Shown here: in pieces, positions 13,465 through 32,535 of the stretch | Layout of the letters: each line of letters starts with the position of its first letter | Numbering within the stretch: position 1 is the stretch's first letter | Assembly: GCA_014192425.1 (NCBI GenBank) | Contig: BJHK01000009.1 | Location: forward strand, 62,001 to 126,000 | Length of the DNA: 64,000 bases | Direction of reading: 5' to 3' | From: Planctomycetia bacterium | GTDB lineage: Bacteria; Planctomycetota; Planctomycetia; Pirellulales; UBA1268 | Position numbers and translations under genes: made by a program | The notes under the pieces: model-generated | Seen by the model: only the letters and a program-made list of their open reading frames with translations | Told to the model about the DNA's origin: nothing | The model's database searches: none

Positions 13465-14547
<1,083 letters not shown>

Positions 14548-15933
14548 TCAGCGGCGGTCGTCGGGCAGTTCCACCCTGTCGGGGAGGCGGGCCCGGTCGC
14601 GGGCCTCGGCCTGCTTGGCATCGCGGGTCATCCTCCAGGCGCCGAAGGCGAGCACGAGGCCCACGGCGGCGGCGAGGACCGCGAAGATCGTCGACAGCCC
14701 GCGGCCATCGACCGGGGGCGTGGCCACGATCCACTCCGGCGTGCCCCCCACGATGAGCGCGGTCTCCATGCGCTGGCCGCGTCGCTCCTTGTCGCCCTGC
14801 GACGACGAGATGTCGAGGTCGGGAAGCGGGTAGCCGTACCGCTTGAGGGCGAACCCCGTCACGCTCACCCGCTCGCCGATCCGATCGCCGCTGGGAAAGC
14901 CCACGGGCAGGCTGCGGACGCAGCACACGAACGGGTAGTCATCCTGCACGCGATCGTTGACCCTGAGGAGCGGCGTGTCGGCGAACACGAACAGCTCCCA
15001 GTAATGGTCGGCCCCCACCTGCCGGCGCCGCACAGGCTCGTCGATCACGACGCGGGTCGCCTTGCGGGCGATGCCCGTGAGCGTGACCGCGTCGCCGCGG
15101 TGGCCGGCGAACCACTTCTCGCGCGGGTCGATGAGCGGGAGGATGCGGTCGGTCGTCAGCTGGAGGCCGCGGACGGCCGCTGCCTCGGGCCGTCCGGCCG
15201 CGGCGAGGAGAGCGAAGAGCGCGGGGTTATCCCCCGGCTCGATCCGGCCGCCATCCTTGACGGTGTCGAGGAGGGCGTAGTCCATGCCGAGCCGCCCAAG
15301 CGGTGTGTCCGGATGCCAGGCGACCGCGTCGGCGGCGAGCAGCAGGGCGGCCGGCTGGGCAGGCCATCCGGTCGGAGCGGGCCGCGCTCCCCCTGCGCTG
15401 GACAGGGGCAGGCCGACCACCTCCGCAGGTTCGTCGATCGGCTTCGCACGCGGCCAGGCCCGCGGCGCCCGGCGCGTGGCCACGTCCACCGTGACTCCGT
15501 CCGCCGCCACGATCCGCACGACGTCGATCGGCTTGCCGCCGGCGAGCAGCGCCTGCTCGTCGGTCAACGGCAGCCGGTCCACGAACGTGGCCCGACCCCG
15601 GACCCGCACGAGGCCGTCCGCAACCGCGGCGGGCGGGACCTTCAGGTCGTCGGCCTGCTCCTTCCAGGGCAGCATCAGCGGTGCCGGCACGTCGAGGGCG
15701 GCGAGGACGCGGATCAGCATGCTCGTCTTGTCATTTCCCCAGTCCCCCGGCTCCTCGAGGACGCGGCGCTGCTCGCGGTCGAGCTTGGCATCGGCGAGGA
15801 ACGAGGCCACGTCGCGGGGCTCCGCCCGGCCGACGGAAACGGCACCGACCGCGGCGAGCAGCAGGACGACGCCGGCGGCGGCACGACGGGTGCGGGAAGC
15901 GTAGGCGGAAAGTATGGGCATCGCTGACCTCAT
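14548..15933 (-). CDS. Exported membrane-anchored protein, unknown, in oxidase locus
   Basis: 461 residues. Signal peptide: SRTRRAAAGVVLLLAAVGAVSVGRAE (about residues 11-36). The large extracytoplasmic part contains two similar beta-rich stretches, ADGLVRVRGRATFVDRLPL and GDAVTLTGIARKATRV, which look like OB-fold strands, then HYWELFVFADTPLLRVND. A C-terminal helix (LSTIFAVLAAAVGLVLAFGAW) anchors it with a short charged cytoplasmic tail. Its start codon overlaps the upstream gene by ATGA, so the pair is coupled. It shares the GxxVxxxGxxR pattern with that neighbour. Function unknown; position suggests a role in assembly or stability of the cytochrome oxidase. Confidence 0.6.
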   Translation of the reverse strand: MRSAMPILSAYASRTRRAAAGVVLLLAAVGAVSVGRAEPRDVASFLADAKLDREQRRVLEEPGDWGNDKTSMLIRVLAALDVPAPLMLPWKEQADDLKVPPAAVADGLVRVRGRATFVDRLPLTDEQALLAGGKPIDVVRIVAADGVTVDVATRRAPRAWPRAKPIDEPAEVVGLPLSSAGGARPAPTGWPAQPAALLLAADAVAWHPDTPLGRLGMDYALLDTVKDGGRIEPGDNPALFALLAAAGRPEAAAVRGLQLTTDRILPLIDPREKWFAGHRGDAVTLTGIARKATRVVIDEPVRRRQVGADHYWELFVFADTPLLRVNDRVQDDYPFVCCVRSLPVGFPSGDRIGERVSVTGFALKRYGYPLPDLDISSSQGDKERRGQRMETALIVGGTPEWIVATPPVDGRGLSTIFAVLAAAVGLVLAFGAWRMTRDAKQAEARDRARLPDRVELPDDRR

Positions 15934-16991
15934 GAGGACGGTGATCGGACCTCGGCAGACTGCTCCGCGGCGGCAGCACGATGGTCCACCTCCAGTCGGC
16001 GCAGCGCCTCGGCCGGCGAGATGATGTCGGCAGCGGCGAGCGTCGCCTCCAGGTCGGCTGGCCCCTCGACCCGTCGCCGGCCATCCGTGGGACCGATGAG
16101 GCCGAGGCCGAAGCCGACCACGGCCGCCACCGTCGCCACGACCACGGCCAGCAGCGTGTACCCGAGCAGGTGGCCCCCATGGTACACCAGCGCCGCGACC
16201 GGTTCGGGCGGCCGGCGCCGCAGCGTGGCCGCGAGCACGAGCGGGGCCCGGCGCAGCTGGTGATCCCGGGCCAGATAGGCGAAGTTCTTGAAGAAGTAGC
16301 CGTCGACGTCCACCGAGCCGAGGCTGCCAGCGGGCTCGATTTCCGAGGGCACGTCCAGGGCATGGACGACAATCGGCGCCGACGTGCCATCCGCCGGTTC
16401 GACCCACGCCTCGTGGTAGTGGGCGATGCCGTAGTCATTGGCCGGGGCCGTCCGTCGCTCCAGGCTGCGGACCTTGCCGCTGAACCGCACGGGACGGCCG
16501 CGGAACGACCTCGGCTGGCCAAACAGTTCACCGAACCCGACCGGCTGCGTGGCCGCCCGCAGTCCCTGCGGATCGGACGAGCGCAGGGTGAGCATGGTCT
16601 GGATCCAGGCCGGCACCTCTTCTTTGCGGTGGAAGGTCTCGTCCTTGATCAGGGCCAGCAGCTCGGACGGCGCCGAGAGCGTCTCGGCCGAGCGGACGAC
16701 CGACTCCGACACCGGCTCCGGCTCCGGCTCCGGCGGCTGCTCGACCTGCACGTCGCCGGGCCCGAGCACCGGCTGTCCGGCCCCGGCCAGCAGCGTGTCG
16801 ACACGGACCGCCGGGGACGGTTTCCATGACCGCTCCAGCCAGCCGAGGAGGAGCACGGCGGCCACGGCCGGCGGCATGACCCACCAGAACAGTCGGCGGC
16901 GCTCCCGCCGGGCAAGAAAATTCCGCGGCCCGTGCGTCGGCCTGTCGGCCGCGGGCTGCTCCCGATCATCCCCGTCTGCGGCGGCATGCAT
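15930..16991 (-). CDS. Membrane protein with OB-like domain, unknown, in oxidase locus
   Basis: 353 residues from ATG 16991. One N-terminal helix (about residues 38-55, LFWWVMPPAVAAVLLLGWL) and one near 290-312 (LLGYTLLAVVVATVAAVVGFGLGLIG) flank an external domain. That domain contains a Pro/Glu-repeat linker (PPEPEPEPVSE) and FRGRPVRFSGKVRSLERRTAP, an OB-fold-like strand pattern also seen in the next gene. The C-terminal cytoplasmic region, LEATLAAADIISPAEALRRLEVDH, may bind a partner. It is translationally coupled to the gene at 14548. I do not recognise the family; the pair looks like an ancient duplication specialised for the oxidase cluster. Confidence 0.6.
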   Translation of the reverse strand: MHAAADGDDREQPAADRPTHGPRNFLARRERRRLFWWVMPPAVAAVLLLGWLERSWKPSPAVRVDTLLAGAGQPVLGPGDVQVEQPPEPEPEPVSESVVRSAETLSAPSELLALIKDETFHRKEEVPAWIQTMLTLRSSDPQGLRAATQPVGFGELFGQPRSFRGRPVRFSGKVRSLERRTAPANDYGIAHYHEAWVEPADGTSAPIVVHALDVPSEIEPAGSLGSVDVDGYFFKNFAYLARDHQLRRAPLVLAATLRRRPPEPVAALVYHGGHLLGYTLLAVVVATVAAVVGFGLGLIGPTDGRRRVEGPADLEATLAAADIISPAEALRRLEVDHRAAAAEQSAEVRSPSS

Positions 16992-17023
16992 GTCGTTACC
17001 CTGATCGCCGCCGCGGGCCGGAC

Positions 17024-17272
17024 TTATTCCCCCCCGGCCCGGTTCCGCTCCTGCCGGCGCATCTCCCGCCACACGTAGCAGCCGAAGCTGCCGACGAGCG
17101 TGAACGGCATCGCGAGCATGAGGAGGATGCTGTAGAAGTAGCCGCGGGCCATGTTCAGCCCGTCGGGATCGGAGGTGTTGACCGCATCCTTGCAGTTCGG
17201 GCAGCCGAGGGCGTCGGCCGCCACGAGGGCGACGACGGTGACCACGACGGCGGCGAGGCGGAGGTATCTCAT
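17024..17272 (-). CDS. Small membrane protein with CxxC motif
   Basis: 82 residues. A cleavable-looking signal (MRYLRLAAVVVTVVALVAADALG) is followed by CPNCKDAVNTSDPDG and then a transmembrane helix (SILLMLAMPFTLVGSFGCYVW) ending in a charged tail. The CPNC motif just after the signal would lie outside the inner membrane, where it could bind metal or act in thiol exchange. It sits between the DUF420 gene and the two OB-like proteins in the oxidase locus. A TATAAT box lies seven bases from its start, so it may have its own leaderless transcript. Possible role in copper or heme handling, by context only. Confidence 0.6.
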   Translation of the reverse strand: MRYLRLAAVVVTVVALVAADALGCPNCKDAVNTSDPDGLNMARGYFYSILLMLAMPFTLVGSFGCYVWREMRRQERNRAGGE

Positions 17273-17278
17273 ATCCCG

Positions 17279-17284
17279 ATTATA
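17279..17284 (-). promoter_or_regulatory. TATAAT box immediately before an ATG (possible leaderless start)
   Basis: The minus strand reads TATAAT at 17284-17279, and the ATG of the small CxxC protein begins at 17272, so transcription would start at or next to the start codon. No good -35 element was found at the usual spacing. It lies directly at the end of the DUF420 gene. Confidence 0.35.
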
Positions 17285-17735
17285 GCGCGGCGCCGGGAAA
17301 GAGCACGTACAGCATCAGGTAGATCACCACGCCCGTGACCGAGACGTACAGCCAGATCGGAAGCGTGATCCGCCCCAGCCGGCGGTGGGCGTCGAATCGG
17401 CCCTTCCAGGCCAGGAAGAACATCCGCAGGGCCAGGACGGGCACCAGTGCCGCCAGCGGAACGTGGGTGAAGAGGATCGCCAGGTAGACAGGCTTCACCC
17501 CCTCCGGCCCGGCGAAGCGGTGCGTCCCCTCGGCGGCGTACCGGGTCAGGTAGGAGACGAGAAACACCGTCGAGACCACGAATGCCGCCGTCATCGCCTT
17601 GCGATGGCCGCGGACGTTGCCCCGGCGGATGAGCAGCCAGCCCGTCACGAGGAGCACCGCGGCCAGGGCGTTGAGGAGGGCGTTGAGCGTCGCCAACGGG
17701 TGCGCGGCCAACGGCAGGACGAGGGGCGTGGTCAT
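17280..17735 (-). CDS. DUF420 / CtaM-like oxidase assembly membrane protein
   Basis: 151 residues with four transmembrane helices. Recognisable DUF420 features are LNALLNALAAVLLVTGWLLIRRG, then HRKAMTAAFVVSTVFLVSYL, and HVPLAALVPVLALRMF followed by HRRLGRITLPIWLYVSVTG. The conserved His and Arg residues of this family are present. DUF420 proteins (YozB/CtaM in Firmicutes) are needed for maturation of heme-copper oxidases, probably in copper or heme delivery. It overlaps the SCO gene by ATGA, consistent with joint function. Confidence 0.85.
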   Translation of the reverse strand: MTTPLVLPLAAHPLATLNALLNALAAVLLVTGWLLIRRGNVRGHRKAMTAAFVVSTVFLVSYLTRYAAEGTHRFAGPEGVKPVYLAILFTHVPLAALVPVLALRMFFLAWKGRFDAHRRLGRITLPIWLYVSVTGVVIYLMLYVLFPGAAL

Positions 17736-18415
17736 GGCGTCGCTCCGACGGGCGGCGGGGATACAGCGGCGCCAGCGGCCGGCACGGCCGGGGCTGCATC
17801 CTTCTCGGCGAGCACGGTGCGGATCAGCTTCTTGAGCTTCGCCAGTTCCAGCGGATCGAGGAGGTGGTGGCCGCCGCGCAGCCGCCCCTGCCGGTCGAAG
17901 ACGACGCCGCGCTCGGAGTGCACGCCGACCTCGACCGTCAGACCGAACGTCTTCTGCCCCACGCGCCGGAGCACGTCGATGTCTCCGGTGAGGAATGTCC
18001 AGCGGTCCGTGTCGGCCGCGAACCGCTCCGCGTACCGCAGCAGTACGGCCGGCGTGTCGTTCTCCGGATCGCAGGTCAGGCTCACCGCCAGGAAGTCGGG
18101 ATCCTCGATCTCCGCGAGGATCTCGGCCACCGCCTGGTTCTCACGAAAGCAGGGGCCGGGGCAGTTGGCGAAGAAGATGCTCCCCATCCACACCTTGCCG
18201 GCGAGCCGGGCGGAGTCGAACTCCTTGCCGCGCTGGTCGACGAGCCGGAAGGGCGACTCGACGACGCTCACCAGGCCCGGCCCCTCCGGGACCGGCTTGC
18301 CGACCTGCACCTCGACCGGCCGCTGGATCGCGACCTCGCGCGGGCCGCAGCCGGCACCGACCAGCGCCACGAGCAGCACGGTGGTCGGCAGAAAGACGCG
18401 CGGAACCCGGATCAT
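17732..18415 (-). CDS. SCO1/SenC family copper chaperone lipoprotein
   Basis: 227 residues. Lipoprotein signal with VGAGC at residues 19-23. The thioredoxin-like fold has the copper-binding CxxxC as FFANCPGPCFRENQ (about residue 83), and the conserved distal His occurs in VGVHSERGVVFDRQG. SCO proteins deliver copper to the CuA site of oxidase subunit II and keep its cysteines reduced. A Pro/Ala-rich tail ends the protein. Located directly after the subunit IV gene and coupled to DUF420, as expected for an oxidase assembly module. Confidence 0.92.
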   Translation of the reverse strand: MIRVPRVFLPTTVLLVALVGAGCGPREVAIQRPVEVQVGKPVPEGPGLVSVVESPFRLVDQRGKEFDSARLAGKVWMGSIFFANCPGPCFRENQAVAEILAEIEDPDFLAVSLTCDPENDTPAVLLRYAERFAADTDRWTFLTGDIDVLRRVGQKTFGLTVEVGVHSERGVVFDRQGRLRGGHHLLDPLELAKLKKLIRTVLAEKDAAPAVPAAGAAVSPPPVGATP

Positions 18416-18430: not shown

Positions 18431-18922
18431 TCAGTGGGCCGGCGACTCAACGCCGCGCTGCTCGCCGGCCCGTTCCAGGACCGAGACGTCGGCCGGCCGG
18501 GCCATGTGAACCGCCCGCTCCTGGGAGATCATCCGGTTCCGCATGCCGATGTCGGGGATGAGCATGATCGCCAGGAACACCGCCATCATCGCCGCCGGAA
18601 TCGTGAGCACGTACTTCCAGTTCGCCTCCCAGAGGACGTGCATGAAGAACAGGATCACGAGCATCGCCTTCGTGCATGACACCGCCATCATGAACGCCCA
18701 GCCGACCTGCGGCTGGTCGCGCCACGGCCAGTAGGAGGTGAACGTCAGGAACGACATGCTCGTCAGGAAGCAGAGGGCGAGAAACACGGCGAGGTAGGTG
18801 CCGAGCCCGCCGTGGTGCTCCTCGTGGCCGCCATGAGAATGCTCGAGGTCGTGGCCCGGGTCGTCGGCCGTGCCGCCCGGACGGGTGATCGGGCCGTGCT
18901 CGTGATGGTCGTGGTGACTCAT
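18431..18922 (-). CDS. Cytochrome c oxidase subunit IV (prokaryotic type)
   Basis: 163 residues from ATG 18922. A His-rich cytoplasmic N-terminus (MSHHDHHEHGP, then HSHGGHEEHHGG) is followed by three transmembrane helices: LAVFLALCFLTSMSFLTF, VGWAFMMAVSCTKAMLVILFFMHV and VLTIPAAMMAVFLAIMLIP. The helical layout with SxTKAxLVxxFFMHL is the marker of prokaryotic subunit IV (CyoD/CtaF-like). It stabilises the oxidase. Starts 13 bases after the subunit III stop. The His-rich segment may bind metal; subunit III has a similar one. Confidence 0.88.
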   Translation of the reverse strand: MSHHDHHEHGPITRPGGTADDPGHDLEHSHGGHEEHHGGLGTYLAVFLALCFLTSMSFLTFTSYWPWRDQPQVGWAFMMAVSCTKAMLVILFFMHVLWEANWKYVLTIPAAMMAVFLAIMLIPDIGMRNRMISQERAVHMARPADVSVLERAGEQRGVESPAH

Positions 18923-18935
18923 GTCTCGCGTTGCT

Positions 18936-20048
18936 TCAGAAGAGGTACAGGAGAGGGAACAGGAAGATCCAGACGAGATCGACGAAGTGCCAGTACAGGC
19001 CGGCATTTTCGATCATCGCCGCGTTCTTGGGGCCGAGCGTGTAGCCGAGCAGGATCGCGAACACGACGAGCCCGACGAGCACGTGAACGGCGTGAAAACC
19101 GGTGAGCAGGAAATAGGTGCTGGCCCACATGTTGCCGCCGGGGATGACGATCGGCAGCCGCAGCCAGGGGAACGTGTCGTTGAGGCCGACGGCGTGCCCG
19201 CCATGGCCGCCCCCGTGGTCGCCGCCGGCATGGGCCGTCGGCAGCGGCATGATCTGGTCGGCGACCACCGCCATGTCGTAGGACCCCTGCTCCCGGTCGG
19301 CGAGCATCTTCTGCACCTGCTGGAGGCCCGTGCGGGCTGACAACTCGGCGGCGGAGAGTTTGTCCGCGGGCAGGTCGTCGAGACGCTTGAGGAGATCGCG
19401 TTTGGGCTCCGGAAGCGGCGACCACTTTCCTTCGGGCGACGTCGTTCCCTTCTTCCAGTCGTCGTCGCCGGGCAACCGCAGCACCGCCGGCACGCGCCCG
19501 TCGGGAATGTCGCGCAGTTCCGCCAGCCGGGTGCGGACGGCCGAGCCGTACGGCAGATCGGGCCGCTCGTAAATCAGTCCGCGCGGGGATGCCGGATAGA
19601 TGCCGTGGTCGAACTTCGCCTTGTACTCGTAGGCCTTGATGCCGAGGAACAGGGAACCGAGGACGAGCGTGAGGAGCATCCAGAACTTCGCCCGGCCGGT
19701 CTTCGCGGCCCGCGCCGCCTCCAGCGCCAAGACGATCGTCACGCTGGAGCAGATGAGGACGAACGTGTTGAAGGCCCCGATCGGCTCGGAGAGATGGACG
19801 TGGTGCGGCTTGGGCCAGACCGCGGCGCCGAAGCGGAGCACGACATAACTTCCGAGCAGGGCCGCGAAGAACATGATCTCCGTCGACAGGAAGAGCCACA
19901 TGATCAGCTTGCCGCGGGACAGGGGCAGGCCCGGCTGATACTGGAGCGTGAGATGGCCATGGTGCCCGTGGCCATCCCCGTGCCCGTCGCCGTGGGCGTG
20001 ACCGTGGTCGGACTGGCCGTGGTGGATCGAAGCGGCGGAGGAGTGCAT
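18936..20048 (-). CDS. ctaE: Cytochrome c oxidase subunit III with large insertion
   Basis: 370 residues; a normal bacterial subunit III of this type is about 200. The N-terminus is a His/Gly-rich run ([18 protein letters not shown]) and is followed by [22 protein letters not shown]. The subunit III helices continue to about residue 145, then an insertion of about 130 residues ([15 protein letters not shown]... to ...[12 protein letters not shown]) occurs before the last two helices, [20 protein letters not shown] and [20 protein letters not shown], which are canonical. The inserted segment is charged and helical and contains a second His-rich patch ([11 protein letters not shown]). It should be outside the membrane. 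Start chosen at the first Met of the His-rich tail. Confidence 0.93.
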
Positions 20049-20070: not shown

Positions 20071-21030
20071 TCAGACGGGCCGGCCCCAGGCGACGGCCGC
20101 GATCAGCAGGCCGAGCAGGGACCCCAGGGACGTGAAGAGCAGCATGCGGGCCGAGGCGTCGTCGCGGCGGACGGCGAACCGGGCTGCGGCCAGAGCATAG
20201 ACGATCGAGGCCGCCGCTGCCGCCAGGAACAAGCGAATGCTGGCCGATGGCACGGCCAGGGCGAGGCTCGCCGGGATCATCGCCAGAGCGGCGGCCAGCG
20301 ACTGCCCGGCCGCCCGCAGGCCGGATGGATCGACGACGGTGAGCATTTTCATGCCGGCCGCGGCGTAGTGCCGCCGGTACAGCCAGGCGATCGCCATGAA
20401 GTGGGGAAACTGCCAGAGGTAAAGGACGGCACCGAGGGCCGCCGCGGCCACCGCGCCCCGCGGGTCCCCGGCGGCCAGCCGGGCCGGGCCGTCGGCGGCC
20501 AGCCAGCCGATCGCCACCGGCAGGGCCCCGGCGACCGCGCCGACGGCGGTGTTGAGGGGCGTGACGAGCTTGAGTGGCGTGTAGGCGACGACATACAGCA
20601 GCCAGGTGGCCACGGCCGCCGCGGCCGCCTGCCAGCCGCCAGAGAGAATGCAGATCAGTGCTCCGCCGACGAGCAGGAGCAGCGTCACGATCCATGCTGC
20701 CCCCACGCCCAGCCGCCCCGCGGCCAGCGGCCGCTCGGCGGTGCGCGGCATGAGCCGGTCGGCATGCCGCTCGAGGATCTGGTTGGCGATGCTCGAACTG
20801 GCGGCGACGAGCGCGGTGCCGGTGAGCAGCCAGAGCAGCCCGGCGGCGGTCGCGGGACGACCGGCCGTCAGCCAGTAGGCAGACGCCACGGTGGCGAGCA
20901 CGAGCAGCGCGATCCGCGGCCGCACGAGTTTGGTCACGTCTTCGGCGACGAGGGCCCAAGGACCGCGGCCGACCTCGACCGAGCCAGCGCCGACCGGCAC
21001 GGCCACGGCGACCTGCTGCGGGCGCGTCAT
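20071..21030 (-). CDS. ctaB: Protoheme IX farnesyltransferase (heme O synthase)
   Basis: 319 residues with about eight helices. [16 protein letters not shown] begins the UbiA-type prenyltransferase core; the first aspartate-rich motif is seen as [20 protein letters not shown] near residue 100, in which one position usually Asp is His. [21 protein letters not shown] carries the second conserved region. It attaches a farnesyl group to heme B, giving heme O, the first step towards heme A for the oxidase encoded alongside. Its start overlaps the ctaA stop by ATGA; upstream in-frame extensions are antisense-like and were rejected. Confidence 0.92.
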
Positions 21031-22079
21031 GCGAACACCCCCCGCGGCCGGCGCGAGCCGGCGACCCGCGTGGACGGCGCGTCTCGCAGCCCGCCGCCGA
21101 CGATCCAGAGCACGACCGCGCCGCCGAGGATCAGCATGCCGAGGACAACATGGCCGGTGACGACCGCGGCCGCGGCTGGGCTCCGCGCCCGCAGCGACTC
21201 GGAGAGCCGCCACGCATCGGGGAGCAGGCCCGAGGGCAGCCCCCACGACACGACCCACGCCCCGCAGCCGAGCAGGATCTGGCAGACGACGAGGCCGGCG
21301 ATCAGCCACGCCCAGCGGCGGGCGGCGGACGGCCTGCCGCCGTTGGCCCAGGCGAGCAGGGCGGCAAGCAGCGTCACGACGACGGCCCCGGCGACGTGGA
21401 AGCCGACGAGCCAGCGGAACGTGAGCGGATCGACCCCCGCGTCGAGGTGCCGAAGTTGGGCCCCCGCCACGAGCTGCACGTAGGCGGCGACGACGAGGGC
21501 GACCGCGCCGACGGCGGCGGCCACGGCCCGCGGCTGCGGAGGCTGCACGGCCGGCTGCCGTGACGACACCGCGCTGCAGACGACCGACCGCCGCGTCAGC
21601 GCGGCGATCGCCGTGGCCACGGCGAAGAACAGCGGGCCGGTGCAGGCGTGGACCTTGGCCACGGTCTTGTCGTCCAGCAGCACGCGGGCCCCGCCGAGCA
21701 CGCCCTGGGCGATGACGAGGATCACGGCCGCCACGGCCAGCGACCGCACGGCCGGGCTCTGCCCGCTCCGCCACACGACCGTGGCGAGGACGAGCGACAA
21801 CAGACCCACGACCGCACCGAGCAGCCGGTGGCCATGCTCGAGGAACAGGTCCCAGGGACCGCCGAGCCAGTCGGCGAGCGGGAACAGGAACATGTTGTGG
21901 CCGTAGGTGGCCGGCCAGTCGGGCACGGCCATCGCGGCCTCGTAGGTCGTGACCAGCGCCCCGAAGCAGAGCAGCACGGCCGTCACCGCCACGAGCAGGC
22001 AGGCGATCCAGTGCGTCCAGTTGAGGCGGCGGGTGAACATGCTGGGGAGACGGACGAATCGCATTCCATTCCGCTGCAT
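21027..22079 (-). CDS. ctaA: Heme A synthase
   Basis: 350 residues with eight transmembrane helices. LVTTYEAAMAVPDWPATYGHNM has the family's first conserved loop, FLEHGHRLLGAVVGLL supplies a heme-ligating His pair, VHACTGPLFFAVATA supplies another, and FHVAGAVVVTLLAALLAW and GHVVLGMLILGGAVV complete the four-helix repeat. The loop Cys pair of some CtaA proteins is not evident. CtaA oxidises the heme O methyl to make heme A. Coupled to ctaB by ATGA. An internal Met (MRFVRLP, 15 bases downstream) is an alternative start. Confidence 0.9.
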   Translation of the reverse strand: MQRNGMRFVRLPSMFTRRLNWTHWIACLLVAVTAVLLCFGALVTTYEAAMAVPDWPATYGHNMFLFPLADWLGGPWDLFLEHGHRLLGAVVGLLSLVLATVVWRSGQSPAVRSLAVAAVILVIAQGVLGGARVLLDDKTVAKVHACTGPLFFAVATAIAALTRRSVVCSAVSSRQPAVQPPQPRAVAAAVGAVALVVAAYVQLVAGAQLRHLDAGVDPLTFRWLVGFHVAGAVVVTLLAALLAWANGGRPSAARRWAWLIAGLVVCQILLGCGAWVVSWGLPSGLLPDAWRLSESLRARSPAAAAVVTGHVVLGMLILGGAVVLWIVGGGLRDAPSTRVAGSRRPRGVFA

Positions 22080-22247: not shown

Positions 22248-24059
<1,812 letters not shown>

Positions 24060-26234: not shown

Positions 26235-27134
26235 TCACTCGCCGACCGCCGTGCCGGGCACCTCGATCGTCCCCAGGTCCTTCACCTCGTCGGCCTCGAG
26301 CCGCACCTGGAAGCGGCCCTTGGGTGTCCACTTGAGTTCCGGCTTCTGCAGGCTGAGCACGTTCCCTGCCGACTTGGCTCGCTCGTGCCAGACCTGCAAT
26401 TCGATCGTTTCCCCGGCCGGCAGGTCGGGAATCTGGAACGAGCCATCGGCCGCCGAGACGGACACATAGCCGTCCTTGCGGAAGATGCCGTAGGCCTTCA
26501 TCCACGGGTGGATGTTGCAGGTGATCTTCTTCGGCATCCCGAATTCGACCTCCGGGGCGTAGGCAGCGCCCGAGCCGGCGGGGATCAACTGGTTAAAGCT
26601 CGTCCCCTCGATGTTCGTGTTGTGGCCGATCGGGTCGCTGTTGCGGATGTCGACCGGCTGGCCGACACGGGCCGCGAACACGGGGGCGATGAACTCGCAG
26701 TGCTTCTGGTCGAAGGTCAATTTCGCAGCGGTCGAAGCCTCCTTCACCCGCGACGTCTTGCGGGCGAAGATCACGACGTTGGCCAGCCCCTTCGTCGCTG
26801 GATCGACGATCAACGACCTGTCGACGAGGTCCTTGCCGTCCTTCGAGCAGACGTTCTTCTCGGCGACTCCCTTGAGCGGCTGTGGTTCGCCGGGCGTGCC
26901 CGTGAAGATGAACCGGCCCTTGAGCGTGGCCCAGCCGGTGCCGGTGGGAGCGGCTTCGGTGGCACTGTCGGCCGCAGGCGTGGCCGCGGAGCCGAGCACG
27001 CCGCGGAGCCGATCGACTGCGGCGAGGTCGGCGACGGGCGTGGCGACCCGCTGCTGGCCGCAGCCGGTGAGACTGACGGCAGCAAGCACGAGACCGCAGC
27101 ACAGGATGGCGCCGAGAAGGTTCCGCATGGCCAC
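26235..27134 (-). CDS. Cupredoxin-like lipoprotein
   Basis: 299 residues. Signal with lipobox LTGCG near residue 25. The C-terminal 200 residues resemble plastocyanin-like proteins found with bc-type complexes: ARVGQPVDIRNSDPIGHNTNIEG gives the N-terminal copper-binding His, and ITCNIHPWMKAYGIFRKDGYVSV gives the Cys, His and Met cluster. The last domain (GSFQIPDLPAGETIELQVWHE) resembles a carboxypeptidase-regulatory-like beta-sandwich. Next to a paralog at 27134, with the two genes sharing one base pair at their junction. Likely a soluble or lipid-anchored electron carrier between the bc-type complex and the oxidase. Confidence 0.75.
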   Translation of the reverse strand: MAMRNLLGAILCCGLVLAAVSLTGCGQQRVATPVADLAAVDRLRGVLGSAATPAADSATEAAPTGTGWATLKGRFIFTGTPGEPQPLKGVAEKNVCSKDGKDLVDRSLIVDPATKGLANVVIFARKTSRVKEASTAAKLTFDQKHCEFIAPVFAARVGQPVDIRNSDPIGHNTNIEGTSFNQLIPAGSGAAYAPEVEFGMPKKITCNIHPWMKAYGIFRKDGYVSVSAADGSFQIPDLPAGETIELQVWHERAKSAGNVLSLQKPELKWTPKGRFQVRLEADEVKDLGTIEVPGTAVGE

Positions 27135-27892
27135 TACTTCTTCTCCATCTCCACGACGACGTCGCCGAGGTCGGTGCCGGCGGTCGCGACCTTCACCTGC
27201 CTCTTTCCCTTGGACAGCGTCTCTTCCTTCCCGTTGATCGTGACCTTCTTGAGGAACCCGGCCTTCTCATGCCAGAAGGCGAGTTCCAATTCACCGGCCG
27301 GCAGGTTCGTGAGCTCGAACGAGCCGTCGGGCTTGGAAACGGCCGAGTACGGATTCCCGCGCACGACGACGTAGGCCTTCATCCACGGGTGGACGTTGCA
27401 GGCCACCGGCACGGGCACCGACTCCTCCGCGGTGAACTTGAGCGTGGACTTGCCCCCGGCCGGGATCAGGTTGTTCGACGGGTCGTTCTTGAGCGGCGTC
27501 ACGTTGCTGTTGTGGCCGCACTTGTCGGAGTTTTGGATCTCCAATTCCTGGCCGGTCTGCACGGCGACGACATGCGGCTCGAACCGCAGCCCCTTGTTGT
27601 CGAGCATCACCGGCTTCTTCGCCGCCGCGGCGACGTCGGGGTGGACCTTGACGTCCTTGCTGCGCACGAAGACGACGACGTTGGCGATGCCGCCGTCGGC
27701 GCCGACCACCAGTTCCTCGCTGCTGAGCTTTGGGTTCCCACAGATCGGGTCGTTCGCATTGAGCTGCACGGGCGTCGGTGGGGTCCCCTTGAACTTGAAC
27801 TTCCCCTTCACCGTGCCCCATTCCTCGGCGATCGCGGGCGCGGCCACCAGGAACATGATCAACGCAAGCACGGCACGGGGCAGGCGGGTCAT
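27134..27892 (-). CDS. Cupredoxin-like exported protein
   Basis: 252 residues from ATG 27892, which gives signal peptide MTRLPRAVLALIMFLVAAPAIAEE. The same architecture as the neighbouring gene: VQTGQELEIQNSDKCGHNSNVTP with the first copper His, VACNVHPWMKAYVVVRG with the Cys/His/Met cluster, and a terminal beta-sandwich (GSFELTNLPAGELELAFWHE). Without a lipobox it should be soluble in the periplasm, whereas its paralog is lipid-anchored. It is probably a second copper electron carrier in the respiratory chain; the copper assignment is by motif. Confidence 0.75.
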   Translation of the reverse strand: MTRLPRAVLALIMFLVAAPAIAEEWGTVKGKFKFKGTPPTPVQLNANDPICGNPKLSSEELVVGADGGIANVVVFVRSKDVKVHPDVAAAAKKPVMLDNKGLRFEPHVVAVQTGQELEIQNSDKCGHNSNVTPLKNDPSNNLIPAGGKSTLKFTAEESVPVPVACNVHPWMKAYVVVRGNPYSAVSKPDGSFELTNLPAGELELAFWHEKAGFLKKVTINGKEETLSKGKRQVKVATAGTDLGDVVVEMEKK

Positions 27893-27945
27893 GGCGAAAC
27901 TCCGGAAGGGTGGGAAAAAACGGACCGGCGGATACTCAACCATGG

Positions 27946-30900
27946 TCATTGTAGTGCCACCCGTGACGCGGACGACCGTTCGGCAGGCTCGAGGCTCGCC
28001 GCCGGCCGGTTTTCCGAATCGGGTCTGGACTCCAGCGGCGGAGATTCCGCAGCCGGTGCCTGCGACTGCGCCGGCGGCGATACCGGCCGCGCCGGCTCAC
28101 GCCGGCCGGCGAGTTTCCGCTTGGCGAACTCGTCGTAGTGCATGAGCAGGTCGGTCAGCGCCTCGACCTGCTGCTCGCTCGTCCCCTGGTACAGCTCCTG
28201 GCTCACCGGCTGGTCGAACGGGATGTTGACCGGCATGCCCGTGTAGGGCAGGAACCGCTTGGGGTTGGCGATCCAGTTGTGCACGTAGTCGGGCCGGAGC
28301 CGCTCGTGGACGTTGGCCAATTGCGGCGCCAGCGCCTTGATGCTCGCCCCCACCGGCATCTTGTCACCGAGCAGATGGCACTTGATGCAGTAGTTGTTGT
28401 TGCGAACGATCTTCAGGGCGTCGTCGAGATGCCGGGGGTGCCTGCGCTCCGTTTCGGCCAGCGAGCCGACGTCGAGCCGCGGGTCGTAGACGTACGATTC
28501 GGCCCCGTCGACCGCGGCGAAGTAGTTGACCAGCGCCGCCGCCTCCGACGAGTGGAAGTTGAACTTCGGCATCCGCAGCACGGCCGGCGGCCGGATCGGG
28601 TGCGGGTTGAGGAGGAACTTGTGCAGCCACGCCGACTGCACTTTCCGCCCCTCGCCCACGAGCGGCGGCGGCAGCCAGCCCCAGGCGTCGTCCCCCTTGA
28701 CCGCCGGGTTGTTCAGCTTTTCGTCGGCGATCACCACCGGGAACAGCAACCGGGCGAGGTCGCCACCCTTGCCGGGATAGTGCCGCCCGGCCTGGACCGC
28801 GTCGTCCGGCACGGCCATGTTGCGACTGCCCACCGGCCATGGTTTGCCGTCGACGATCGCGTCGCGCCAGAGCATGAACGGACGGAAGACCTTCGACTCC
28901 CTGTCGTCCGGCTCGATCGCCTGCCCATCCTCGTCGACCTCCTGCGGACGTCCCGTCTTCTCGTCGAGCATCGGCATGCCGACGAGCGTCGCCCGGCGGC
29001 GGCCGGCGCGATCGGTCGTCAGTGCCCCATGCAGCTGCGGCTCCGTGAAGTGGGGCGCCAGGAACGGATACCCCGTGATCGCCGGGGTCTCGCCGAGCGT
29101 ACCCGGCTTGTAGCGGACGTCCCAGCGGTCCATCTCCAGGGCATGGCAGCCGCCGCAGTTGTACTGCTCGGCGACAACGAGCCCTTGCAGCCGGGCCTCC
29201 TCGCGCGGCGACGGCCGGTGGACGTACTTGGGCGCCGGCGGCTCTGCGACGAGCCCGAGCACGAACGTCATCACCGCCTCACGCTGCTGCGCGTCGAAGG
29301 GGAACTGCGGCATCCGGTAGCGCTCGTTGTACTTCTTGTTCTCCGCCTTCTTGTAGTCGTAACTCCGCGGCGCCCGCAGCTTCTGCCAGAGGAAGCCCTC
29401 GCGCTCGTGGCCGAGCAGTTTCTGTACGAAGAAGCCGGTGTCGGCGTCGACCGCCTCCGGGTCGAAGTGCGGGGCGTCGCCCGCACGGCCATAGGGAAGT
29501 TCGGGGTTGAGATCGGCGTCGCCGTTCACGTGCCCCGTGCCCTGGTCCCCGGCTCCGTGGTGACCGCCGCCGTGGCCGTGGTGCCCGCCAAGCTGATTGA
29601 CGACATGGTGAGCCACCTGCTCGAAGGCGATCCGGGAAGGATCCTTACGGCCCCAGTCGGCGAGTGCGGCACCGGCCGGCTTCGCGTCCTCGAATCCGGG
29701 GATGTCATGGCAGGAGTAGCAGGCCAGTTTGGCGACCGTCTTCTTGCCGACGTAGTTGAGCAGCGTGGCGTCGCGGCCAGCGCCGTCGAGACCGACGAGC
29801 ATCCGCTCGTCCCCCTGCAGGTTCGACATCTCGGCGGACAGCCCGCGCTGGAGCACCGCGGCCGCCTTGACAGACGGGAACCGCTCCTCCAGGTACATCA
29901 GCGCCAGTTCGTCGAGCGCCTTCCGCTCGTCGGCCGTGAGCGAACCGGCCGCCGGAACGTTCTCCGGCTTCCAACCCTCCGTGGACGTCATCAGGTACGC
30001 CACGGCGTCGGCGGCCGGGTCGCTGACGCTGCCGTCGGCGAGCGTGACCGGCTCCAGGATGACGTTCGGCATCAGCGTCCGCGGGTGATACGTGGCCGGC
30101 TCGCGCAGCCAGCTGTACAGCCACTCCTTGCCGCGCGGGTGGCCGGCGATCTTGGCGCCGATCCGCGACAGGTTCGGACCGTGGGTGCTCGTCGCCTCCG
30201 GGAAGTCGGCGTGCTGATGGCAGGCGAGGCAGCCGCGCAGCTGGAACACCTTCTTGCCGCGGTCGACGTCGGCGGCAGCCGTGATCCCGGCGTGCGGCGG
30301 GACGTACTCGAACGGGGCGCTGGCAGCGGCGATGTAATGGATCATCGAGCGGATCTCGAGCGGCTCGTATCGCTTCGACTCCTCCAACCCCTTGCCTTCG
30401 AGATGATCCCAGAGCCCGAAGAACCGGGGCATCTTCGTCGACGGCCGGAAGTCCTGCGGATTCCGCAGCCAGGAGTAGGTCCAGTCGAAGCCGAGCTTGC
30501 TGGCGGCATGCCGCAGGGAGGGCCCGACCTTGGGAAACGTGCCCGGTGTCTCCGGATCCTTGAGCAGCGACACGAGCTGGTGCGACCGCGGCGAGAGCTT
30601 GGCCTCGCCACCGGCGCCGGCGTCGCGCTCGAGCACGTCGCGGAGCCGCTCGCGGGCCGCACGGCCGTCGGGACTCGACCGCATCTCCTCGACCCAGCGC
30701 TCAACCGTGCTGCCGAGCGCCGCCAGCCCCTTGTCGGCGAGCAGGGATTCGGCCACTTCGTGGAAGTTGGGCTGGAGCCGCATGTCGGGGCCGATCCGCT
30801 TCTCCGGCCCTGCCCAGCCGTTGATCTCGTGGCAGCCGTAGCAGCCGTACTGGCGAATCAGGTGATAGCCCTCGACGAGCTTCGGCGCCGGCGGCTCGGG

Positions 30901-32535
30901 GAACTTCTCGCTCGGCTCGAGGTCGACCACCTGGTGGTGGCACTTCAGGCAGCTCGACTCCTCGAACCGCTGCGGCAGCATCGGCAGGATCCAGTGGTGG
31001 TTGTTGAACCAGCCGTACTCGTCGTGCCACTCATGGGCCTGCTTGGGCGAATTCGGCGTGTGCGACACCCACTTGAACGCCGTCGCACTCCCCTGCCCCT
31101 GGTGGCAGATCGTGCAGCCGAACGACTTCATCGGATGGGGACTGGAATCGCCGACGAACAGGTCGAGCCGAGGATGCGTCGCGTAGGGCTGCGGCACGCC
31201 GCGCCGCACCTGAACGGCCAGCGGCTTGCCCCAGGCCGGCGTCTCGACGAGGCCGGCGACGGCGATCTGCCGGGCCGGGGTCCCTCCGCCGGCGACCGCT
31301 TCGATGACGTCCCCCACCTGGATGCCGGCCTCCGCAGCCGGCGATTGCGGCACGACGACCGCCACCGTCGGGTCGTCGGCGTTCAACAGCCCCTGCGGCG
31401 CGAGCCGGAAGCCGTACAGCGACTCGAGCTGGTCGTTGCCGTCGCCGACGACGTCACGCTGCTCCGGCGGCGCGGCGGGCGTGGGGAGCGTGATGGCAAC
31501 CTCGTGTGCGGCCGGATAGGCGGGGTCGGTCGGCGCCCCGGGGACCGTCTTGTCCATGCCCCGATGGCAGGTGCCGCAGCGGTCGAACCGGGCCACCTCG
31601 CGGAAGTTGTTGTTGAGCGTCAGTTCCGGGAGCCAGATCTGGTCGGGCCTGAGCGGCCCGTTGAAGGCGTCGAGCACCGGCATCTCGAGCAGCGACTTGC
31701 CCGCGGTCGACCGCCGCTGGTCGAGCGTCTTCTGCAGCTGCACGAGCTTGCCACGATGGTCATCGACGCCCTTGGCCGCGGCGTCCTCGGCAGCCGTGAT
31801 CCGCCGCAGCGCGCCGTCGAGCACGAGCCGGTGGGTGTTCGCCTCCTGAAACTTGCCCGTGGCCACGGCCACATCGGCCCGCTTGGCATCGGTGATGGCA
31901 AGCAGCGCCTGCTGCCGGTCGGTCGGGGCCTCGTCGGCGATCGCCAGCTCGTAGTCCGCCCGGTTCTTGTCGAGCTGCGCCTTCTCGAGCTTCAGGGCGC
32001 CCGCCAGTTGGTCCTCGCGAAACTTTGCCCGCTTGGCGATGTCGCGGAGCCGGACCAGCAGGTCTCCCCGGGCGGCGAACACGGCACTCCACAGTTCATC
32101 GGCAGTGCCGGACTCCGCGGCAGCATTGACCTTGGCCGGGTCGACCTCGGCCTGCGGGGGCAGCGCCTTCACACTCGCGACCACCTTGGCGAGGGCGGCC
32201 TCGGCATCGGCCGCGGCCTCGGCATCTTCCGGCACCGTGCGCACGGCCGTCAGCATCTGCTCGACGAGGGCCGGATCGAGCATCCGCCGCGCCTTGGCCA
32301 GGGCATCCGCGAGCTCGCGGCCGCGGGCCTCGTAGGCCTTCGACTCCTGTTCCTGCACGCGGGCCTTCGCCGACCACGTCTCCAACTCGCGGAAGCCGCG
32401 GGCATATTTTTTCCACGGGCGATCGTGGTCGGCGGTCAGCATCAGGACCGTCGCCACAAGAAGCAGGATCGCCGCCACGGCGAAGACGACGTGGAGGACC
32501 TTGAGGTTATGCCAGGTCTGTTCGTTTGCAGGCAT
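27946..32535 (-). CDS. Giant octaheme cytochrome c with PDZ-like domain
   Basis: 1529 residues. One N-terminal helix (LKVLHVVFAVAAILLLVATVLML, about residues 9-31) anchors it and is followed by a long coiled-coil-like region to about residue 310. Eight CxxCH heme sites are visible in order: CGTCH, CTICH, CLKCH, CYGCH, CLACH, CYSCH, CGGCH, CIKCH. Between the first two is a PDZ-like domain (VVVPQSPAAEAGIQVGDVIEAV). Linkers between hemes contain repeated PxxxxMPxF-like elements that may give Met ligands. It lies next to the cytochrome b and Rieske genes, so it is the likely cytochrome c1-equivalent of the complex. Confidence 0.9.
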   Translation of the reverse strand: MPANEQTWHNLKVLHVVFAVAAILLLVATVLMLTADHDRPWKKYARGFRELETWSAKARVQEQESKAYEARGRELADALAKARRMLDPALVEQMLTAVRTVPEDAEAAADAEAALAKVVASVKALPPQAEVDPAKVNAAAESGTADELWSAVFAARGDLLVRLRDIAKRAKFREDQLAGALKLEKAQLDKNRADYELAIADEAPTDRQQALLAITDAKRADVAVATGKFQEANTHRLVLDGALRRITAAEDAAAKGVDDHRGKLVQLQKTLDQRRSTAGKSLLEMPVLDAFNGPLRPDQIWLPELTLNNNFREVARFDRCGTCHRGMDKTVPGAPTDPAYPAAHEVAITLPTPAAPPEQRDVVGDGNDQLESLYGFRLAPQGLLNADDPTVAVVVPQSPAAEAGIQVGDVIEAVAGGGTPARQIAVAGLVETPAWGKPLAVQVRRGVPQPYATHPRLDLFVGDSSPHPMKSFGCTICHQGQGSATAFKWVSHTPNSPKQAHEWHDEYGWFNNHHWILPMLPQRFEESSCLKCHHQVVDLEPSEKFPEPPAPKLVEGYHLIRQYGCYGCHEINGWAGPEKRIGPDMRLQPNFHEVAESLLADKGLAALGSTVERWVEEMRSSPDGRAARERLRDVLERDAGAGGEAKLSPRSHQLVSLLKDPETPGTFPKVGPSLRHAASKLGFDWTYSWLRNPQDFRPSTKMPRFFGLWDHLEGKGLEESKRYEPLEIRSMIHYIAAASAPFEYVPPHAGITAAADVDRGKKVFQLRGCLACHQHADFPEATSTHGPNLSRIGAKIAGHPRGKEWLYSWLREPATYHPRTLMPNVILEPVTLADGSVSDPAADAVAYLMTSTEGWKPENVPAAGSLTADERKALDELALMYLEERFPSVKAAAVLQRGLSAEMSNLQGDERMLVGLDGAGRDATLLNYVGKKTVAKLACYSCHDIPGFEDAKPAGAALADWGRKDPSRIAFEQVAHHVVNQLGGHHGHGGGHHGAGDQGTGHVNGDADLNPELPYGRAGDAPHFDPEAVDADTGFFVQKLLGHEREGFLWQKLRAPRSYDYKKAENKKYNERYRMPQFPFDAQQREAVMTFVLGLVAEPPAPKYVHRPSPREEARLQGLVVAEQYNCGGCHALEMDRWDVRYKPGTLGETPAITGYPFLAPHFTEPQLHGALTTDRAGRRRATLVGMPMLDEKTGRPQEVDEDGQAIEPDDRESKVFRPFMLWRDAIVDGKPWPVGSRNMAVPDDAVQAGRHYPGKGGDLARLLFPVVIADEKLNNPAVKGDDAWGWLPPPLVGEGRKVQSAWLHKFLLNPHPIRPPAVLRMPKFNFHSSEAAALVNYFAAVDGAESYVYDPRLDVGSLAETERRHPRHLDDALKIVRNNNYCIKCHLLGDKMPVGASIKALAPQLANVHERLRPDYVHNWIANPKRFLPYTGMPVNIPFDQPVSQELYQGTSEQQVEALTDLLMHYDEFAKRKLAGRREPARPVSPPAQSQAPAAESPPLESRPDSENRPAASLEPAERSSASRVALQ

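Follow-up and report, generated by a model that had tools for sequence, protein, structure and literature searches.

Two previously described factors are among the closest to the genes considered here. TlpA of Bradyrhizobium has been reported to reduce ScoI and COX II (PMC6696091), and the DUF420 protein CtaM is described as being required late in oxidase assembly (PMC9145763). We analyzed the oxidase locus of a window of 64,000 nucleotides (G000:C9:62001-126000; by "window" we mean this whole stretch), which belongs to a planctomycete metagenome-assembled genome (MAG) of 3.98 Mb. The locus includes three genes for membrane proteins, which we call A, B and C. Protein A has relatives in which a cysteine codon is replaced by TGA, and its family is a strong candidate for a bacterial selenoprotein family associated with oxidase operons. 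B and C appear to form a separate family.

Like TlpA, A is apparently a membrane-anchored protein with a periplasmic CxxC motif, and SCO and COX2 are its proposed partners. Unlike TlpA, it has no thioredoxin domain, and only about 20 residues separate its motif from its transmembrane (TM) segment. DUF420 proteins resemble A in being oxidase-operon factors, and the DUF420 gene is directly upstream of A, but they have four or five TM segments and are unrelated to A in sequence. Known selenoproteins that depend on a bacterial selenocysteine insertion sequence (bSECIS) share several properties with the A family: an in-frame TGA at a CxxC cysteine together with homologues that have cysteine (Cys), a hairpin with a GGU apical loop 17-21 nt past the TGA, and selenocysteine (Sec) machinery in the same genomes. 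The A family differs from them in that Sec may occupy either Cys of the motif.

Judging by the row names and domain identifiers in a 2026 review of 119 bSECIS selenoprotein families (PMC13188914), none of these is a small, single-TM protein of a cox operon. Nor is any of the nine new families, as presented in a 2025 prediction study, a single-TM protein of such operons. Our literature search retrieved no paper that joins the subjects of selenoproteins and oxidase operons, and the planctomycete candidate list in Table S9 of PMC4807772 could hold A.

Protein A and the oxidase operon

The oxidase genes of the window have an aa3-type arrangement on the minus strand, in the order COX2, COX1, CtaA, CtaB, COX3, COX4, SCO, DUF420, A, B, C and malate dehydrogenase (mdh). 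COX1, COX3, COX4, CtaA, CtaB, SCO, DUF420 and mdh were identified by family scans, and the COX2 and cytochrome c labels in our neighbourhood maps were assigned by eye from sequence. An original prediction, made from the letters of the window, had proposed three membrane proteins of unknown family in line with SCO, DUF420 and oxidase subunits. These genes are real: all three are on the minus strand downstream of SCO (PF02630, 1.2e-17) and DUF420 (PF04238, 6.5e-45), with COX4, COX3 and COX1 further upstream, and their products match nothing in Pfam or NCBIfam above noise. A PHROGs search with A, B and C gave no reliable match, and an Rfam scan of the whole window gave none at all. The CPNC motif that had been noticed right after the signal of one protein is also present as described, in A, whose N-terminus is hydrophobic and signal-like. 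The single hydrophobic stretch of A is at approximately residues 45-67.

Genome searches were confined to Planctomycetota. A profile of 17 A sequences from family f1, to which the window belongs (profile A3), matched 54 of 244 genomes that are at least 85% complete. COX1 is present in all 54, versus 153 of the 190 unmatched genomes (P 5.8e-5). Among the COX1 matches listed, 35 of the 54 A places are within 12 kb of COX1 and five are farther from it on the same contig, while eight have COX1 on other contigs only and six have none. With a profile of a 41-row alignment (A6), A was found in 81 of the same 244 genomes at E<=0.01 and in 73 at E<=1e-4, and 72 of these 73 have COX1. (This last count, the cross-counts of TGA with selA, selB and tRNA-Sec, and the number of 48 TGA genomes given below come from comparing search tables.) In neighbourhoods fetched across the phylum, the usual position of A is directly after DUF420 and SCO. 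It is highly probable that A is a protein of oxidase operons, with a role connected to them, across Planctomycetota. The original prediction, which saw candidates for oxidase assembly or accessory subunits and suggested a phylogenetic profile against ctaD, is thus supported for A as to its association with the oxidase.

In-frame TGA codons and a candidate SECIS hairpin

The A frame is broken by an in-frame TGA in 32 of the 73 genomes, and we read the codons in all 32. In 24 genes (UxxC) it is the first Cys of the motif that gives way to TGA, and in eight (CxxU; G167, G110, G170, G169, G144, G142, G155 and G178) the second. Neither TAA nor TAG was found at these Cys positions in the 32 genes, and the residues downstream of the TGA are conserved (UPNCKEAVAS and similar).

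A hairpin of at least 5 bp that closes a 4-nt loop occurs 17 nt past the TGA in 18 of the 24 UxxC genes versus none of 41 Cys genes, a set that leaves out the TGA gene L173 and is not independent, since 21 of its rows are from f1. The loop reads GGTC in 19 of the 24 UxxC genes versus 10 of the 41 Cys genes. Since the eight CxxU hairpins are put out of register by MAFFT, we restricted the covariation count to the UxxC genes. In this 24-row alignment, 88.2% of cells are paired, and five of six pairs have compensatory changes (21 cells, versus 7.2 +/- 1.8 after shuffling). The covariation score is 0.415, versus 0.132 for shuffled alignments and 0.018-0.115 when the structure is slid by 1 to 3 columns.

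The bSECIS rules stated in the 2026 review (PMC13188914) are a loop of 3-9 nt, a stem of 4-16 bp, a G in the first two loop positions, a distance of 16-37 nt from the TGA and a minimum free energy of at most -7.5. With an uninterrupted stem, these rules are passed by 21 of the 32 TGA genes, one of the 41 Cys genes and 148 of 1600 shuffles. The genes that pass include three of the eight CxxU genes (G167, G110 and G155), in which 19-21 nt separate the loop from the shifted TGA.

The Sec machinery is commoner in the genomes with TGA. SelA exceeds its curated cut-off in all 32 TGA genomes versus 18 of 41 Cys genomes (P 5.5e-8), and SelB does so in 31 of 32 versus 17 of 41 (P 2.4e-7). A strong tRNA-Sec, for which we set a threshold of E<1e-12, is present in 30 of the 32. 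The Rfam tRNA-Sec model at E<=0.001 "matches" all 244 genomes and all 14 controls, so an Rfam match to tRNA-Sec counts for little on its own. In the genome of the window itself (G000), SelA was not matched, and SelB did not exceed the curated cut-off.

We also searched 392 genomes that are at least 50% complete. A was found in 110, and 48 of these read TGA, of which 16 are new and were used in no model. In this hold-out set, the TGA is on CxxC in 15 of 16 genes (nine UxxC and six CxxU). A cox gene is within the 2-4 kb fetched in eight of these 15 loci, and seven of the 15 genes conform to the SECIS rule.

Given that most of these genomes are MAGs, the TGA codons might be sequencing errors, signs of pseudogenes or a reassigned stop codon. 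However, TGA alone occurs, at the exact Cys positions, in every one of the 32 genes and in all but one of the hold-out genes, the protein downstream is conserved, the hairpin covaries and the genomes have Sec machinery. These explanations are in the main refuted, and we give them very little credence. General reassignment of TGA is ruled out by COX1 of the TGA genomes: among the rows listed there is no inner TGA, and the sole inner stop is one TAA, in G246. Because of the TGA codons on CxxC, the SECIS hairpin and the distribution of selA, A is a selenoprotein candidate, and on this sequence evidence we are very confident that its family contains Sec.

Possible function of protein A

We propose that A, encoded in the aa3-type oxidase operon of Planctomycetota, is a periplasmic protein that is anchored in the membrane and carries a CxxC motif. 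In lineages that decode Sec, one Cys of the motif would be replaced by Sec, with the TGA read by means of the downstream bSECIS hairpin. The lineage of the window, in which neither selA nor selB has a match over the curated cut-off, would use the Cys form. The motif is probably exposed to the periplasm and redox-active, and its thiol or selenol may perform a reduction that is needed for copper loading. Specifically, A could maintain one or both of two Cys pairs, that of SCO and that of the CuA site in COX2, in the reduced state, as TlpA does in Bradyrhizobium.

Such a redox role at the copper sites is tentative, and in our estimation falls slightly short of probable. Somewhat more speculative is the full proposal that A represents the first family of selenoproteins devoted to the assembly of a heme-copper oxidase, that it reduces the copper-site Cys residues of SCO and COX2 in Planctomycetota, and that Sec and Cys are swapped with the presence of Sec machinery while the position of Sec moves within the motif. 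The broader explanation, in which A is a redox-active Cys or Sec protein of the oxidase operon and B and C belong to a separate family, is reasonably probable.

Several observations weigh against this interpretation, in its selenoprotein part or its functional part. The window's copy of A has TGC at the motif, i.e., it is a Cys form without TGA. Eleven of the 32 TGA genes fail the uninterrupted-stem rule, including those of G151, G107, G165, G067 and G119 (G389 and G416, close relatives of G119, pass with another hairpin, 32 nt away), as do eight of the 15 hold-out genes. In the hold-out exception, G347 (G347:C214, L242), the TGA directly follows a Cys (KSC[TGA]) and is not on CxxC. A strong tRNA-Sec was not detected in G096 and G067, nor selB in G252, all of them incomplete MAGs. 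No cox gene was found in the stretch fetched for three of the 32 TGA loci (G169, G142 and G155) or within 2-4 kb of A in seven of the 15 hold-out loci, and G142, which has a TGA form, is the one genome of the 73 in which COX1 was not matched. As to function, the case for a redox or copper role consists only of operon position, topology and Sec usage. A family scan of 41 A members detected no thioredoxin-like fold.

One alternative is that the oxidase contains A as a small accessory subunit, a single helix packed beside subunit II in which CxxC or UxxC forms a structural or regulatory disulfide. A is indeed a single-TM protein within the operon. Eight of the 41 A proteins weakly match the NCBIfam model QoxA, which describes subunit II of the aa3 quinol oxidase; the best E is 4.3e-5, and the match stays well under the curated cut-off. 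This makes a structural role next to subunit II the chief competing explanation. However, the Cys/Sec pair accounts for two of only three invariant columns in the 41-row alignment (the third is a Met), and the use of Sec at either motif position points to redox chemistry. We regard an accessory subunit as unlikely.

Peroxide-reducing enzymes commonly contain Sec, and A might be a thiol or selenol protein that protects the oxidase from peroxide or oxygen, rather than an assembly factor. The three TGA forms outside cox operons would fit such a role, but A has no match to peroxidase families and is usually located right behind DUF420 and SCO. This explanation seems to us a little less likely again than that of an accessory subunit. 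With no thioredoxin-family match in any of the 41 members, the idea that A is itself a thioredoxin is ruled out.

For a major environmental phylum, a selenoprotein encoded in a terminal oxidase operon would couple aerobic respiration to the supply of selenium. Automated annotation normally ends genes of this kind at TGA, and therefore the Sec forms of A have probably been missed. The occurrence of Sec at either Cys of one motif would amount to a natural experiment on CxxC chemistry. Since Sec usage marks A as redox-active, a direct test of an as yet unassigned step of CuA/CuB assembly should be possible.

We note two unusual genomic contexts of A. In G051 (L150), a Sec-form A and DUF420 are located between two cox clusters, on the strand opposite to both. 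In G169 and G142 (L217 and L219), the CxxU-form A adjoins a transporter-like gene, and cox genes were not found nearby.

Proteins B and C

The genes for B and C overlap by ATGA and are therefore likely to be translationally coupled. The original prediction had pointed to a GxxVxxxGxVR pattern common to the two coupled proteins. B has this pattern literally (GRPVRFSGKVR) and C approximately (GDAVTLTGIAR), and it reflects real homology. We aligned 17 B and 16 C proteins from up to 16 families, and in a profile-profile comparison residues 101-303 of B match residues 212-439 of C with a probability of 99.9 and an E-value of 5.5e-37. As judged from sequence comparison, B and C are paralogous membrane-anchored proteins. 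They share one open frame in L012, L013, L016 and L017 (f1) and in L034 (f8), and these fusions support the idea that B and C act together. A search of PDB sequences with B and C gave nothing above noise.

We modelled B with AF2 from four sequences, namely B of the window and of L031 and the second halves of both C proteins. The model is poor overall, with a predicted local distance difference test (pLDDT) score of 53, and residues 150-245 mostly have values of 64-83. By name, the best 50 VIA-align rows for this model (Z 9.7 to 8.8) are proteins with oligonucleotide/oligosaccharide-binding (OB) folds, such as MCM N-domains, AsnRS, Ten1/Stn1, RPA and HIN domains. Proteins with OB folds of the CcmE or NfeD type are absent from these 50 rows, which is not evidence of a difference. 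The B domain is predicted from the model to be an OB fold, a five-stranded barrel. The model of C (pLDDT 40) is not useful. The OB fold suggested originally is thus supported for B; for C, which is homologous to B, it is only a candidate fold. B and C differ from the OB-fold proteins MCM, AsnRS, Ten1/Stn1 and RPA in that they are membrane-anchored with an OB domain predicted to be outside the cytoplasm, and no sequence relation to these proteins was found.

B was found in 36 of 40 relatives. In six f1 neighbourhoods that we mapped (20 kb each), A, B, C and the cox genes keep their order. By contrast, B-C has neither cox genes nor SCO, DUF420 or A as neighbours in any of the 14 Pirellulales loci that we mapped outside f1. 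The mdh gene adjoins B-C in the non-f1 loci L038 and L039, and in L063. In the 244 phylum genomes, B has matches in 80 (some matches of the B model are C-like relatives). COX1 is present in 68 of the 80 genomes with B and 139 of the 164 without it (odds ratio 1.02, P 1.0), i.e., there is no association. Twelve genomes have B and no detectable COX1, the outcome that the original prediction had itself named as refuting it; they are 85-97% complete, and some absences may be gaps.

The suggestion that B and C are candidates for oxidase assembly or accessory subunits, as the original prediction had it, thus did not hold up. As oxidase subunits they are rejected, because they lack an association with COX1 and have cox neighbours only in f1. 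Such a role restricted to f1 could still account for the place behind A in the six mapped neighbourhoods and for the B-C fusions beside A in some f1 genomes. However, it is at odds with the phylum-wide counts, with the 14 loci without cox genes and with the ExbB linkage described next, and we consider it decidedly improbable. This result shifts the hypothesis for B and C from the oxidase to envelope energetics.

Clustering of the neighbours of 56 loci revealed ExbB, ExbD and a large tetratricopeptide repeat (TPR)-like protein, which were named by eye, with ExbB confirmed by PF01618. A run of ExbB-ExbD-ExbD-B occurs in L067, L078, L100 and L157, an ExbB-led run precedes B in L090 and L091, and TPR or ExbBD genes are near B-C in L036, L063 and L069. 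Among the ExbB matches listed, ExbB is no more than 10 kb from a B locus in six of 26 genomes, where 0.58 are expected (P 1.7e-5). This test used 26 chosen genomes with 36 B loci, measured distance from match starts and ignores kinship; G035 is just beyond 10 kb. In another set of lineages, B adjoins genes resembling those of peptidase C26, aroB, dprA or folC, as assigned by eye. In L040 (G027), B occurs alone, and the gene after it on the same strand resembles, by eye, one for a DtxR/MntR-type regulator.

It is possible, if somewhat doubtful, that an energized envelope machine of the ExbB-ExbD-TPR type uses B and C as periplasmic OB-fold adaptors. The runs and nearby genes listed above suggest this, but many lineages show no such linkage, including f1; in the genome of the window, an operon of the ExbB/ExbD/TPR type is on another contig (L142). 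In several lineages, genes of ExbB/ExbD (TolQ/TolR) systems thus neighbour members of the B family, although B and C are not homologues of ExbB, ExbD or TonB by Pfam. In our preferred explanation, B and C would be a separate family of paralogous proteins that are anchored in the inner membrane and have periplasmic OB-like domains. Ancestrally, the two would have been linked to one another and to mdh, and in several lineages also to ExbB-ExbD-TPR operons. B-C would then be an envelope pair of long standing that came to lie next to the cox genes in f1.

Features of the locus

The positions of A, B and C, of the segments discussed above and of neighbouring genes are given in Table 1.

Table 1 Genes and segments of the oxidase locus, in window coordinates
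Feature	Position	Strand	Description
A	17024..17272	-	82 amino acids; signal-like N-terminus, CPNC, one TM segment; Cys-form family member, Sec (TGA) forms elsewhere
CPNC motif of A, codons 24-27	17192..17203	-	First Cys codon (TGC) is the TGA site in 24/32 TGA relatives
B	15930..16991	-	353 amino acids from ATG (start inferred); N-terminal TM, periplasmic part with one predicted OB-fold domain, C-terminal TM
Predicted OB-fold domain of B, residues 145-251	16239..16559	-	AF2 model and VIA-align
C	14548..15933	-	461 amino acids; signal/TM, two OB-like modules (second B-like; poor model), C-terminal TM
B-like module of C, residues 212-439	14617..15300	-	Profile-profile comparison
DUF420 (CtaM-type) gene	17280..17735	-	Pfam PF04238
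SCO1/SenC gene	17732..18415	-	Pfam PF02630
COX4 (caa3-type subunit IV)	18431..18919	-	Family scans
COX3	18936..20048	-	Family scans
CtaB (UbiA family)	20071..20973	-	Start inferred; match inside open reading frame 20071-21774
CtaA	21027..22079	-	Family scan
COX1 (CtaD)	22248..24059	-	Family scan
Malate dehydrogenase	13465..14418	-	Older neighbour of B-C

Some other genes of the locus have noteworthy properties. COX3 matches Pfam in two separate stretches with a long insert between them. The locus is headed by a 1529-amino-acid protein (27946-32535, minus strand) in which many CxxCH motifs can be seen by eye. It is kept in f1 and has partial matches at more distant cox loci. Two adjacent, similar-looking secreted proteins (26235-27134 and 27134-27949, minus strand) have matches in cox loci throughout the phylum.

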